In this document: in pieces, positions 2,798 through 19,930 of the stretch
Numbering within the stretch: position 1 is the first letter of the stretch
Layout: each line of letters opens with the position of its first letter
Program-made: the position numbers and the translations under genes
Notes under the pieces: generated by a model
Told to the model about the DNA's origin: nothing
The model's database searches: none
What the model saw: the letters and a program-made list of their open reading frames with translations, nothing else
Assembly: GCA_015067315.1 (NCBI GenBank)
Contig: SVMR01000007.1
Span: 1-64,000, forward strand
DNA: 64,000 nt
From: Oscillospiraceae bacterium
Lineage (GTDB): Bacteria > Bacillota > Clostridia > Oscillospirales > Ruminococcaceae
Direction of reading: 5' to 3'

Positions 2798-3856
2798 ATG
2801 AAAACTTTTTCCCTTCTTGCATATACTTTTTCACATTTTGCGGTGGATTATCTTTGCTTCTGGATTTTGTTCGGATATTTTTCCGCGGAAATTTCCGGAA
2901 CGGAAAGGGCGTTCGGCTTTATCCTCTATAATTTAATCGCCTTCGGTTTGCAGATGATAATCGGCGCATATTGCGACGAGCACAGGAGATTTCCTTCCTC
3001 CGCTCTCGGATGTGTTCTTGTTCTTGCCGCGGTTTTGCTTTCCCCGTTCGCGCCCCGGGTTTCCCTTTGCATAACCGCCCTCGGAAACGCGTTTTTCCAT
3101 GTGGGCGGCGGAATCGACAGCCTTGTTCATTCCGGCGGAAAACTTTCCCGAAGCGGAATTTTTGTTTCCGCAGGCGCCCTCGGCGTTGTTCTCGGAACTC
3201 TTCACGGAACGAAAATCGGGATGAACGATTTCAACCCGGTTCTTTTGATTGCGCCCGCTCTTCTTGCGGTTTTCTGCGCGGTGATTTGCTTTTTTGCGAA
3301 CAAAAAAGCGCCTTTGCTTGAAGACTGCGATATTTCCGGAATTGCGGACAAAAAAACCGGAATCTGGATCGTTCTCGGTCTTGCGCTTCTTTCCGTCGTA
3401 ATCCGCTCCTTCGGCGGAACGGCGATTCCCATGGAATGGAAAACAACCATGAAACTCGGGCTTGTTTCCGGCTTTGCCGCCTTCTTCGGAAAATTCATCG
3501 GCGGTTTTGCGGCGGATTTTTTCGGCGCAAGGCGCACCGGAATCATAACTCTTCTTGCTTCGCTTCCGCTTCTTGTTTTCGGAAGCGGAAATATGATTGT
3601 TTCCGCGGCGGGAATCGTTCTTTTCAATATGACCATGCCCATAACTCTCGGAATCTGCGCCGAAAGGCTTCCGAAGAACCCGGGAATTGCCTTCGGTTTA
3701 ACAACCGCGGCGCTTCTTTTGGGCGCGGTTCCAAGCTTTTTTGCCGTTGTTTCCGGAAAAATCTTCCTGCTTGTTCCGGCAGTTCTTGTTTCCGCCGCCT
3801 GCATTTATTTTTCCGCGGAAAACAAAAAATCCGTTTTGGAGGCGCATAAAAAATGA
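2798..3856 (+). CDS. MFS-like polytopic membrane protein heading the micro-protein operon
   Basis: A 352-aa, very hydrophobic protein with roughly ten to eleven membrane spans and a short basic cytoplasmic loop in the middle (NKKAPLL...DKK). This layout resembles a major facilitator superfamily transporter. A conserved-looking GKFIGGFAADFFGARRTG motif (about 231-248) fits the MFS loop between spans with the GxxxDxxGxRR pattern. I chose ATG 2798 because AAAGGAGG sits 7 nt before it; the upstream ATG at 2780 overlaps that ribosome binding site. Its stop overlaps the start of the first micro-protein (ATGA), so the operon is translationally coupled. Substrate unknown. Confidence 0.75.
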   Translation: MKTFSLLAYTFSHFAVDYLCFWILFGYFSAEISGTERAFGFILYNLIAFGLQMIIGAYCDEHRRFPSSALGCVLVLAAVLLSPFAPRVSLCITALGNAFFHVGGGIDSLVHSGGKLSRSGIFVSAGALGVVLGTLHGTKIGMNDFNPVLLIAPALLAVFCAVICFFANKKAPLLEDCDISGIADKKTGIWIVLGLALLSVVIRSFGGTAIPMEWKTTMKLGLVSGFAAFFGKFIGGFAADFFGARRTGIITLLASLPLLVFGSGNMIVSAAGIVLFNMTMPITLGICAERLPKNPGIAFGLTTAALLLGAVPSFFAVVSGKIFLLVPAVLVSAACIYFSAENKKSVLEAHKK

Positions 3857-3999
3857 TTTTTCTCGACGTCGCGCCCCTTTGGGTTCCCTATGCTTTTCTT
3901 GCGGGCGGTTTTCTTGCCGTCGGCGCAATCGCCGCAGGAATTGTTTTTATAGCCGTAAAGCTTATTAAAAAAGCCATTTCGAAAAATAAGGAGGAATAA
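3853..3999 (+). CDS. Single-span micro-protein 1 of the tandem array (48 aa)
   Basis: A 48-residue protein starting in an ATGA overlap with the MFS-like gene. Layout: N-terminal box MIFLDVAPL, a short linker, one hydrophobic span rich in Gly, Ala, Ile and Val (about residues 14-37), then a basic tail (KLIKKAISKNK). The positive-inside rule puts the N-terminus outside. It has no signal peptide and no recognised domain. Its last codons contain the AAGGAGG that serves the next gene, so reading and start sites interlock. It is related in layout and N-terminal box to the next five genes. Confidence 0.8.
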   Translation: MIFLDVAPLWVPYAFLAGGFLAVGAIAAGIVFIAVKLIKKAISKNKEE

Positions 4000-4002
4000 A
4001 AA

Positions 4003-4158
4003 ATGTATCTTCTTGACGTTGCGGTAGGCCCGATGTATGCGGTAATCGGCGGAACTTTTCTTCTGATTGCTCTTGTTGTTGCCGGAATTGTTTTCGGCGC
4101 GGTTAAACTTATTCAGTTTGCGGTACGCAAAAACAAAAAAGGAGAGAATGAAAAATGA
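4003..4158 (+). CDS. Single-span micro-protein 2 of the tandem array (51 aa)
   Basis: A 51-residue protein with N-terminal box MYLLDVAVG, one membrane span (about 13-37) and a basic tail (VRKNKKGENEK). The ATG lies 3 nt after the previous stop and is served by AAGGAGG inside the previous gene. The stop overlaps the next start as ATGA. Sequence similarity to micro-protein 1 is clearest in LLDVA and in the end of the span (GIVFxAVKLI). Function unknown. Confidence 0.8.
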   Translation: MYLLDVAVGPMYAVIGGTFLLIALVVAGIVFGAVKLIQFAVRKNKKGENEK

Positions 4159-4304
4159 GATATTTTCTTGACCTTATACTTCCCGAAGGCGAAGCTGTTG
4201 CGGAAATTGCAAAAGAACCTTCCGTTCTTCCCTATGTTCTCGGGATCGGAATCGGCGCGGCGGCAATTATCCTTATTGTTAAAGCGATCAAAAACAAAAA
4301 ATAA
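4155..4304 (+). CDS. Single-span micro-protein 3 of the tandem array (49 aa)
   Basis: A 49-residue protein beginning MRYFLDLILP. It has an acidic linker (EGEAVAEIAKEPS), a span (about 25-43) and the tail KAIKNKK. It starts in an ATGA overlap, with AAAGGAGAG upstream inside the previous gene. The acidic linker would face outside and the lysine tail inside. Function unknown; it shares box, layout and tail with its neighbours. Confidence 0.8.
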   Translation: MRYFLDLILPEGEAVAEIAKEPSVLPYVLGIGIGAAAIILIVKAIKNKK

Positions 4305-4317
4305 GGGGGAGAAAAAA

Positions 4318-4467
4318 TTGAAAATCCTTCTCGATCTTGCGCCTCTTCCCCAGGAAATTGAAGCGCTTGAAAAATCTTCCGGCGCCGCGGCAATAATCAT
4401 CGTTGCGGCGGTAATCGTTCTTGCGGCGGTTCTTATTCTTTCCGGAATCCGCAAAAACAGAAAATAA
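4318..4467 (+). CDS. Single-span micro-protein 4 of the tandem array (49 aa)
   Basis: A 49-residue protein starting at TTG 4318, placed 6-7 nt after AAGGGGGAG; the longer open frame upstream lacks a start with a binding site. It has the box MKILLDLAPL, an acidic linker (PQEIEALEKSSG), one span (about 22-43) and the tail IRKNRK. Together with micro-proteins 5 and 6 it gives the clearest consensus for the box, MxILLDLxP. Confidence 0.8.
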   Translation: MKILLDLAPLPQEIEALEKSSGAAAIIIVAAVIVLAAVLILSGIRKNRK

Positions 4468-4479
4468 GGAGGGCGCATT

Positions 4480-4626
4480 ATGAAAATTTTACTTGACCTT
4501 GTTTCCGTAAGCCCCATTGAAATTGCGGCGGATATGTTTTCGCTTTTTGCGCCCTGGATTATCGGCGGCGCGGTTGTAATTGCCGCCGTTGTTCTTATTG
4601 TTAAAGCTGTCCGAAAGAAAAAATAA
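4480..4626 (+). CDS. Single-span micro-protein 5 of the tandem array (48 aa)
   Basis: A 48-residue protein with the box MKILLDLVS, an acidic segment (PIEIAADMF), a span (about 22-41) and the tail VKAVRKKK. AAGGAGGG stands 6-7 nt before the ATG. Its first seven residues are identical to micro-protein 4, which supports origin by tandem duplication. Confidence 0.8.
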   Translation: MKILLDLVSVSPIEIAADMFSLFAPWIIGGAVVIAAVVLIVKAVRKKK

Positions 4627-4641
4627 GGGGTTTTTAAAAAA

Positions 4642-4785
4642 ATGAATATTCTTCTTGATCTTGTTCCAATCGAGCAGGAGATTCCTTCCGTTTCGGCGGA
4701 TTCCGTAATCACCGGAATAATCGTCGCAGCGGCGGTCGCTCTTCTTGCGGTTGCATTCATCCTCGGAAAAATCAAAAAGGACTGA
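4642..4785 (+). CDS. Single-span micro-protein 6 of the tandem array (47 aa)
   Basis: A 47-residue protein with the box MNILLDLVPI, an acidic linker (EQEIPSVSAD), a span (about 21-41) and the tail GKIKKD. The upstream site (AAGGGGTTT) is weaker than that of the other members, suggesting lower or coupled translation. Confidence 0.75.
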   Translation: MNILLDLVPIEQEIPSVSADSVITGIIVAAAVALLAVAFILGKIKKD

Positions 4786-4793
4786 AAAGAAAA

Positions 4794-4934
4794 ATGAAAT
4801 ATTCGTATCTTCCGGAAGCAAAAAACGATTTTTCCTTCGCTTTGCTCGGTTCAAAAGCGGAAATTATTCTTTCATCCCTTGCAATTATCGCCGGAATTGC
4901 TATAATTATATTTATTGCAAAACGTAAAAAATAA
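4794..4934 (+). CDS. Single-span micro-protein 7 of the tandem array, diverged (46 aa)
   Basis: A 46-residue protein, MKYSYLPEAK at the N-terminus, which lacks the LLDL box. It keeps the overall plan: a polar, partly acidic N-terminus, one span (about 23-41) and the tail AKRKK. It begins 8 nt after the previous stop with only a weak AAAAGAAAA before it. It is the least certain member, but continuous codon character and the downstream AAGGAG for the next gene support it. Confidence 0.7.
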   Translation: MKYSYLPEAKNDFSFALLGSKAEIILSSLAIIAGIAIIIFIAKRKK

Positions 4935-4948
4935 GGAGATTTTTCAAA

Positions 4949-5227
4949 ATGGGCAATTCCATAGCTGTTCTTATAGGCACTTCGCTTCTTTCCTTCGCTC
5001 TTATAACTCTTGTTTTCTTCGGTCTTAAAGCCCTTAACAAAAGAAAACATCCGGATAAGGACGAAATCAAGGAAACAAACCGCCAGAGAAGAGAGCGCGA
5101 AAAACTTAAACGCCAGACAACCGAAAAAGTCACCGCTTATATGAAAGGTGAAAAATCGAAAGACAGCGAAAACGTTCCCAACGGAAAGCGCTGCGGAAAA
5201 TATAAGAAGAAAAACAAAAAGAAATGA
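4949..5227 (+). CDS. Small membrane protein with long basic tail (92 aa)
   Basis: One N-terminal span (about residues 5-27) is followed by some 65 very basic, charged residues with a probable coiled-coil character (ETNRQRREREKLKRQ) and a KYKKKNKKK end. The topology would put the basic tail in the cytoplasm. AAGGAG lies 10 nt before the ATG, and the stop overlaps the next start as ATGA. It has the micro-protein plan with an enlarged cytoplasmic tail, so it could be the intracellular partner or anchor of the array. No family recognised. Confidence 0.75.
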   Translation: MGNSIAVLIGTSLLSFALITLVFFGLKALNKRKHPDKDEIKETNRQRREREKLKRQTTEKVTAYMKGEKSKDSENVPNGKRCGKYKKKNKKK

Positions 5228-5568
5228 GCATTGTTTTAATCCTTCTGCGAAACCTTCTGCTGACGGTGCTCATTGAAGGGGTGCTGGTGCTCGTTTTTGT
5301 CCGGAAGAAAGAAACCCTTTATCACAGCGTGCTCGTCAATATGCTGACGAACCCTTTGGTGAATCTTTTACTGATTTTCTGGGCAAATTTTGCGCCGTTT
5401 CAAAAAGTTCCGTGGTTTTATTTCGTCACAGCTTTTCTTGAAATTGCGGCGGTTTCAACCGAATGGATACTCTATTATAGAATGGGGGATTTCGGCATTA
5501 AAAAGGCGTTTTTTGCCTCTTTTCTGCTGAACGCCGCAAGCTATTCCTTCGGACTTTTAATCGGATAG
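5224..5568 (+). CDS. Four-span membrane protein closing the operon (114 aa)
   Basis: A 114-aa hydrophobic protein with about four spans; the central phrase is RKKETLYHSVLVNMLTNPLVN. Its start overlaps the previous stop (ATGA). Codon choice differs from the rest of the operon: CTG, CTC and GTG are frequent here, whereas CTT and GTT dominate before it. A strong bidirectional terminator follows. No known function; genes of this general look occur next to small membrane proteins in Clostridia, which is recollection and not a search result. Confidence 0.75.
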   Translation: MSIVLILLRNLLLTVLIEGVLVLVFVRKKETLYHSVLVNMLTNPLVNLLLIFWANFAPFQKVPWFYFVTAFLEIAAVSTEWILYYRMGDFGIKKAFFASFLLNAASYSFGLLIG

Positions 5569-5573
5569 AAAGC

Positions 5574-5610
5574 AAAATGAGCACCGCGTCAAAGACGCGG
5601 TGCTCATTTT
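5574..5610. terminator. Bidirectional terminator with TGAGCAC arms
   Basis: A perfect 17-bp stem (AAAATGAGCACCGCGTC and its complement) has a 3-nt loop. The A and T runs allow function in both directions for the converging operons. The arms carry the recurring word TGAGCAC. Confidence 0.92.
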
Positions 5611-19439: not shown

Positions 19440-19930
19440 AATTCAGAATGCAAAGCACATAATGCAGAATTATAAATTGAAAGTTAATTAGAACTCCGTA
19501 GGGGCGACCCTGTGTGGTCGCCCGCAAAAAAAGGATTCCCGGAGGGTATAGCGCCCCTTGTTAAAAGGGGGATGGCCACGAAGTGGCGGGGGGATTCCTT
19601 TTTAATGCAGAATGCAAAGCATAATGCAGAATTATAATTTAAAATTGGAAGTGATTTAAGCCTTCCGCGCCACCGTAGGGAACGTCGTCCCCGACGTTCC
19701 GGAAAAACAAAACCACCCTTCCGTCTTTTTCGAGGGCAAGCCGCCGAAAAATTCACCTCCCCTCAAGGGGAGGTAAAAAAACAGCCGGTAATCCTTGCAG
19801 AATCCCCCAGTCACGCGCCTGTTCTTAAAGGCGTGACAGCCCCCTTTAACAAGGGGGCCTATTAAAGATAAATCCCGCATTGCTGCGGGATTTTTTCACG
19901 GCGGGAGCAAGCCCCCGCCCTACTGTTTTT
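19440..19930. repeat. Dispersed palindromic repeat block 4 (longest mosaic)
   Basis: Holds almost every module in series: GCATAATGCAGAATT runs (twice), GTAGGGGCGACCC..GGTCGCCC, CCCCTTGTTAAAAGGGG, GTAGGGAACGTCG/CGACGTTCC, CCTCCCCTCAAGGGGAGG, a CAGTCACGC/GCGTGACAG pair, an AATCCCGCA/TGCGGGATT hairpin, and CGGCGGGAGCAAGCCCCCGCC. No gene is seen in it. Confidence 0.85.

Follow-up and report, generated by a model that had tools for sequence, protein, structure and literature searches.

The first 64,000 nucleotides of contig SVMR01000007.1 (Oscillospiraceae bacterium, assembly GCA_015067315.1), which we refer to as the window, raise the question of why a genome would encode seven micro-proteins of 46-51 codons in a row, directly behind a gene for a multi-span protein resembling the major facilitator superfamily (MFS). 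An earlier note on this DNA had drawn attention to the array at 3853-4934 and had suggested a hetero-oligomeric membrane complex; the seven consecutive frames are indeed present on the same strand, and a membrane complex is still the best, albeit conjectural, reading, but the note had missed a further partner with four predicted transmembrane spans (the 4TM protein), as well as the prediction that the shared aspartate (Asp) box lies at the mature N-terminus of relatives with signal peptides. We propose that the micro-proteins are likely small one-span subunits of a transporter-like complex. In the specific form of this proposal, with N-termini outside, C-termini inside and an outward Asp box docking onto the 4TM/MFS pair, we consider it an evenly balanced proposition, in which association, translation, transport and substrate are all surmised from the sequence. 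What the sequences do show is that no other partner accompanies the MFS gene as regularly as the 4TM gene. The genes concerned are the following.

2798..3856, + strand: MFS-like multi-span protein, 352 residues; start ATG at 2798, an in-frame ATG upstream at 2780 being possible
3853..3999, + strand: frame of micro-protein 1, 48 residues, box DVAP at 3865-3876; orthologue group A
4003..4158, + strand: frame of micro-protein 2, 51 residues, box DVAVGP at 4015-4032; orthologue group B (pN<pS in 66/66 pairs, as defined below)
4155..4304, + strand: frame of micro-protein 3, 49 residues, box DLILP at 4170-4184; orthologue group F
4318..4467, + strand: frame of micro-protein 4, TTG start, 49 residues, box DLAP at 4333-4344; orthologue group E
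4480..4626, + strand: frame of micro-protein 5, 48 residues, box DLVSVSP at 4495-4515; orthologue group D
4642..4785, + strand: frame of micro-protein 6, 47 residues, box DLVP at 4657-4668; outside the tested orthologue groups
4794..4934, + strand: micro-protein 7, 46 residues, YLP family, without the Asp box; orthologue group Y (pN<pS in 21/21 pairs)
4949..5227, + strand: protein with one predicted span and an extended basic tail, 92 residues; present in 11/11 genus operons reaching that far
5224..5568, + strand: 4TM protein, 114 residues, predicted to have both termini outside; conserved E18, N39, TNP42-44, E73, E80 and N103 in predicted spans
5574..5610, + strand: terminator-like perfect 17-bp stem with a 3-nucleotide loop, followed by a T-rich stretch

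All genes of the cluster lie on the + strand. Since start and stop codons overlap as ATGA at three joints (MFS gene/micro-protein 1, micro-proteins 2/3, and the genes at 4949 and 5224) and the remaining intergenic gaps measure only 3-15 nucleotides, the cluster from 2798 to 5568 is likely transcribed as one unit. The extent of the array had been given correctly in the earlier note, with the last two genes (4949-5227 and 5224-5568) left out of the unit. It had also credited every frame with a ribosome-binding site or a stop/start overlap; Shine-Dalgarno-like stretches (GGAGG, GGAG, GGGGGAG or AGGGG) do precede micro-proteins 1-6, whereas none is clear before micro-protein 7. A dispersed short element containing GGTCGCCCCTAC occurs on both strands of the window (at 2712, 7288 and 29056 on the + strand, and at 19498, 36468 and 53602 on the - strand), one copy sitting upstream of the MFS-like gene.

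Six of the seven micro-proteins carry the box, a pattern of [hydrophobic]2-D-[hydrophobic]-x(1-4)-P at residues 3-12, compared with a mean of 0.29 and a maximum of 4 of seven when the 18 N-terminal residues were shuffled 2000 times, and the claim of a box common to six of the seven is thus borne out. Micro-protein 7 begins with MKYSYLPEAK and belongs to a conserved family of its own (group Y), marked by a YLPKA-type start. In comparisons of non-synonymous (pN) and synonymous (pS) differences across seven genus orthologue groups (A-F and Y, with micro-proteins 1-5 and 7 among their members), pN was lower than pS in 124/124 pairs, with group ratios of 0.24-0.62; the pairs are not independent, the distances are uncorrected and micro-protein 6 is in none of the groups. 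Six of the seven micro-proteins are under coding selection by this measure. Lack of conservation and lack of coding selection, either of which would have spoken against the array, were both looked for and neither was found. The proposed plan of N-terminal box, acidic linker, span and lysine tail was upheld by the charges of 43 peptides (42 chosen by the box pattern, plus micro-protein 7): lysine and arginine are more numerous in the C-tail than in the N-tail in 43/43 (mean 4.7 vs. 0.8), while aspartate and glutamate average 2.8 in the N-tail vs. 0.9 in the C-tail. Because of this excess of basic residues in the C-tail, we predict that about 18-23 N-terminal residues face outward, followed by one span and by a basic tail in the cytoplasm. 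TatA/TatE was also considered as an identity and rejected, with micro-protein 2 alone giving sub-threshold matches to the Pfam family TatA_B_E (14.7 of 21 bits) and NCBIfam tatAE (11.3 of 53.9 bits).

Within the genus, sampled by 15 genomes including the window, the MFS-like gene occurs in 13, being absent from G011 and G014. The 4TM gene lies downstream in 11/11 operons whose contig extends far enough (the window and ten others), and the two genes enclose between two and seven micro-proteins (two in G012, three in G010, seven in the window). An orthologue of micro-protein 2 is found in 12 of the 13 operons, the thirteenth (G009) being divided over contigs. A profile of the boxed peptides gave matches at E<1e-3 solely on the operon contigs of the 13 MFS-bearing genomes (two contigs in G009), in keeping with the linkage to the MFS-like gene noted earlier; in G011 and G014 it gave weaker, partial matches only, none of them at E<1e-3. 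In G002 (contig C44, L024 4988-5305) micro-proteins B and C form one unbroken frame of 105 residues, which is either a two-span fusion or a case of internal restart; an arrangement with both boxes outside would be odd in topology. The basic-tailed protein at 4949-5227 has a strongly conserved tail, VPNGKRxGKYKKK, in the 11 genus operons reaching it; no family match was found for it, and the gaps listed for other genera did not contain it.

The pairing of the MFS and 4TM genes reaches far beyond the genus. A scan of genome contigs with an MFS profile counted 318 relatives, of which the best 80 loci were kept; L032-L043 match contigs of the genus in length, and among the 68 loci examined (L044-L111) L094 was dropped, having no MFS frame at the cut-off, which leaves 67. 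A 4TM homologue is present in 66 of these 67, always on the same strand and at most 1 kb from the MFS gene (at most 0.5 kb in 60/66 and at most 0.1 kb in 31), upstream of it in six. The only locus without one (L105) is on a contig that stops 220 nucleotides past the MFS gene, and in L099 the MFS frame is split in three pieces. The titles of these loci include Oscillospiraceae, Lachnospiraceae, Bacilli, Coriobacteriia, Dehalococcoidia, candidate phyla, Methanosarcina and Methanobrevibacter, most loci being from metagenome-assembled genomes with uncertain individual taxon labels. Where the MFS and 4TM genes are at least 90 nucleotides apart (34 loci), the gap encodes at least one protein whose span is followed by basic residues in 32 and, by reading, a boxed protein in 30 (not in L063, L089, L098 or L102), with a span after the box in 28. 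In 22 of the 33 loci lacking such a gap, a boxed membrane protein lies no more than 2.5 kb away, and overall an Asp-box protein occurs near the pair in 52/67. An automated pattern scan near the pair gave 56 same-strand hits in 45/67 loci and 0 on the opposite strand, against 2 hits on both strands of 493 kb of flanks further off as a control; given that the patterns were devised with examples already in view and tolerate 0-6 residues from the hydrophobic residue to the proline, what counts is this contrast between pair and flank rather than the absolute number of hits. Run over the whole window, the patterns picked up all but one of the six boxed micro-proteins, along with two other frames.

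The partner protein of archaea, candidate phyla and many Clostridia has a predicted signal peptide ending in A|D, so that the box is predicted to be the mature N-terminus in these relatives, with starts such as DVVSPG (L067), DILPPPG (L080), DIPVPPG (L093), DLISPPG (L070) and DVINP (L062). Members of the window's clade have no signal peptide; in these the Asp of the box follows the initial methionine and about 3-10 residues that are mostly hydrophobic near the Asp. On a tree of 74 MFS proteins (a quick search, with support from the Shimodaira-Hasegawa-like approximate likelihood ratio test only), the mode of export requires 3 changes over the 61 labelled rows, 13 rows being unlabelled, and the label for no signal peptide is clustered, with 5 changes vs. 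a shuffled mean of 23.9; labels were assigned by hand, and those of L098 and L102 were taken from a larger downstream protein. From these counts it follows that, as far as the predictions go, the conserved trait is the exported Asp box rather than the route of export.

Beside several MFS-4TM pairs there are also proteins of about 200-300 residues with a signal peptide, a D-x(4)-P-type start followed by FY, and a C-terminal span (L108 10400-11197, L111 6443-7264, L106 9636-10529, L078 9403-10008, L091 1775-2587 and L110 9793-10590); those of L106 and L111 had no Pfam match at E 0.1. In L098 (9783-12778), adjacent proteins of 467 and 529 residues beside the pair start with ADVGMP and ADIGMP, and against SH3_3 they score 24.4 and 15.6 bits, short of the 27 required. 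L101 (6258-7919) has a doubled unit, with two 4TM homologues upstream of one MFS gene and two further proteins of one or two spans starting with MANPIYVTPEP and FADMGTPEQ.

The 4TM protein has 476 homologues at E 0.001, and no Pfam domain was found on any of the best 120 of these. Across 66 diverse rows T14, E18, E73, E80 and N103 are invariant, and N39, T42, N43, P44, S99, S106 and G110 nearly so. The AlphaFold2 model comprises four helices and is confident (mean predicted local distance difference test score, pLDDT, 90.8). Lysine and arginine counts place loops 1-2 and 3-4 inside in 66/66 rows, for which reason both termini of the protein are predicted to face outward. A fold search with the protein found no related fold, a result which does not show the fold to be new. 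In the MFS-like partner, aligned over 71 rows, H101 and R203 are conserved in 71 each, K232 in 70, H13 in 69 and D17 in 62, with glutamate in 7 more.

A link between the box and the 4TM protein is suggested by genomes in which the two are fused. In an order sample of 197 genomes, 32 gave a 4TM match and 15 an MFS match, two of the latter weak and partial; 14 stronger MFS matches, full-length or nearly so, fell in 13 genomes, and 11 of them adjoin a 4TM gene, ten at 0.41 kb or less and that of the window at 1.4 kb, beyond the array. Among the other 22 genomes with a 4TM match, none of which has an MFS match, 18 have the domain in stop-to-stop frames of 241-339 codons, and G191 has both an MFS-4TM pair and a frame of fused size. 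The loci of the best matches contained 17 full-length fused frames, 15 of which start with a predicted signal peptide and AD-x-G-P-K, the exceptions being L132, which has ADVGLKP, and L137, which has none. One fused protein had 1052 homologues at E 0.001, and among the best 120 of these [AGS]D-x-x-P is found within the first 60 residues in 119; D26, G28, P29, K30, P31 and S32 are invariant in an alignment of 48 rows. A phylum sample of 299 genomes gave a similar picture, with MFS and 4TM genes side by side in G372, G377, G302 and G437 besides the window (in G302 the pair is at a contig end, and in G437 the MFS match is in pieces), and 11 of the 12 other 4TM-bearing genomes having frames of 228-326 codons and no MFS match.

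We surmise that the parts work together as follows. In distant taxa a signal peptide would direct the export of the partner and be cleaved off just ahead of the Asp, while in the window's clade the short acidic N-tail may be carried across the membrane directly, in the manner of the Pf3 coat protein, whose short acidic N-tail is transferred in this way. The box (D-hydrophobic-x-P) would contact the 4TM protein, given that the fused proteins keep box and 4TM domain together in genomes mostly without an MFS gene, and a three-part membrane assembly is suggested because the stand-alone 4TM gene is tightly linked to the MFS gene. Through the 4TM protein the one-span subunits would then be coupled to the MFS protein, itself a possible transporter of a solute; no gene naming a substrate was seen in the neighbourhood. 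The micro-proteins would represent minimal forms of the partner, multiplied in the window's genus, and the array may supply alternative or combined subunits that tune the unit.

Several observations weigh against this proposal. Neither micro-protein 7 nor the basic-tailed protein has the box, no Asp-box protein was found by reading in 15/67 loci (L058 and L088 among these end too early), and the boxed protein appears to be secreted in L064, L099 and part of L080, its sole strong hydrophobic stretch in L064 and L099 being the signal peptide. That the partner need not be a one-span protein is also seen in L072 and L083, where several hydrophobic stretches occur in the boxed protein. G172 and G227, both of one genus (L152, L153), have an MFS relative with no 4TM gene detected, possibly through loss or strong divergence; in G206, of the same genus, the MFS match is at a contig end. 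The model of a fused protein, which included the uncut signal peptide, comprises four helices and a beta-rich domain and places the box in a coil of low certainty; the box region is its least certain part (mean pLDDT 50 at residues 21-30) and no docking pose is given. Lastly, the MFS-like protein of the window scored 12.4 of 33.4 bits against MFS_1 (PF07690), below the Pfam gathering score, and for this reason we use the term MFS-like only. Two of the ten relatives scanned reach that score (L065 with 42.5 and L104 with 40.3 bits) and L097 with 29.2 bits fails, seven having no PF07690 match at E 0.001; MFS_1 was matched at E 0.01 by six of the 16 rows of A2, and eight MFS-like relatives had no NCBIfam match at E 0.001.

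Among other explanations, the one that survives best, though we hold it to be unlikely, is that the MFS-4TM pair serves to mature or sort proteins, those with the Asp box being its tagged cargo, as an N-terminal counterpart of the rhombosortase and exosortase tags. A box behind a signal peptide is the main trait common to peptides of 40-70 residues, apparently secreted proteins, multi-span proteins of 155-179 residues and proteins of 200-530 residues with a C-terminal span. PMC3237569 describes GlyGly-CTERM as a short motif, span and basic cluster, with many proteins for one membrane protein and with consecutive genes, and the many-to-one pairing with consecutive genes seen here is similar. 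On the other hand, the micro-proteins of the window have almost no ectodomain to be sorted, the box is permanently joined to the 4TM domain in the fused family, no gene of the window matched a protease family, and no unlinked copy was found in the genus at E<1e-3 with a profile limited to the micro-protein type. The likeness to GlyGly-CTERM/rhombosortase and PEP-CTERM/exosortase extends to short motif, span, basic cluster, many-to-one pairing and adjacent genes; the difference is that the larger relatives have the box at the predicted mature N-terminus and the span near the C-terminus, while the micro-proteins fit the CTERM plan roughly. The genes of the unit had no Pfam or NCBIfam match to rhomboid or exosortase families, the rest of the genome not having been searched for these.

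Improbable, in our estimation, is that the micro-proteins are regulators which toggle the MFS protein singly, much as AcrZ acts on AcrB, and play no part in a complex with the 4TM protein. Their size and predicted topology class do suit small transporter regulators as presented in PMC7267776, where AcrZ acts on a resistance-nodulation-division (RND) pump, and their number varies from 2 to 7 per single MFS gene; against this, the Asp box is also fused to 4TM domains where the MFS gene is mostly absent. AcrZ is likewise a small one-span protein with a multi-span transporter partner, which is known for AcrZ and conjectured here; up to seven paralogues, the Asp box, the 4TM partner and the MFS-like protein set the present unit apart, by description and not by sequence. 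The multi-peptide leaderless bacteriocin which the earlier note had listed as a lesser option, with exporter and immunity protein, is very improbable: tandem small cationic hydrophobic peptides do lie beside a transporter-like gene, but the unit has been retained in different genera, families and domains, being found in 13/15 genus genomes with related units in archaea and candidate phyla, larger relatives exist, the N-tails are acidic and the box strict, and no bacteriocin family was found among Pfam and NCBIfam matches up to E 1. Chance open frames next to a transporter gene, which short frames under the usual gene-calling limits might suggest, can be dismissed in view of pN<pS throughout, orthologous order, a box far above shuffles and ribosome-binding sites.

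Returning to the complex of one-span subunits with the 4TM/MFS pair, we found for the unit of the window no fitting family in Pfam, NCBIfam or PHROGs, and our paper searches yielded no named family or description of this gene set; the complex is thus apparently undescribed so far. It differs from MFS_1 in that the window's family is regularly paired with a 4TM gene. The hypothetical proteins that we provisionally call 'ADMGPKPS' resemble the unit in their predicted signal peptide, D-x-G-P-K N-terminus and homologous 4TM domain, and differ in being a single fused polypeptide with a beta-rich domain in genomes mostly without an MFS gene. More tentatively, we postulate an unnamed system of bacteria and archaea in which a 4TM protein recognizes an exposed N-terminal Asp box and works with an MFS-type transporter, as an N-terminal counterpart of C-terminal tag systems; in one clade the partners would have lost their signal peptides and become an interchangeable set of up to seven micro-subunits. 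Such a system would join three protein sets without a curated family match in our searches, namely the micro-proteins, which lie near or under gene-calling limits, the 4TM family and the fused family, and it would predict partners and topology for each of the three. For uncultured gut Clostridia, it would mean a tandem set of micro-proteins with a regularly linked multi-span partner, a unit which has relatives in archaea.

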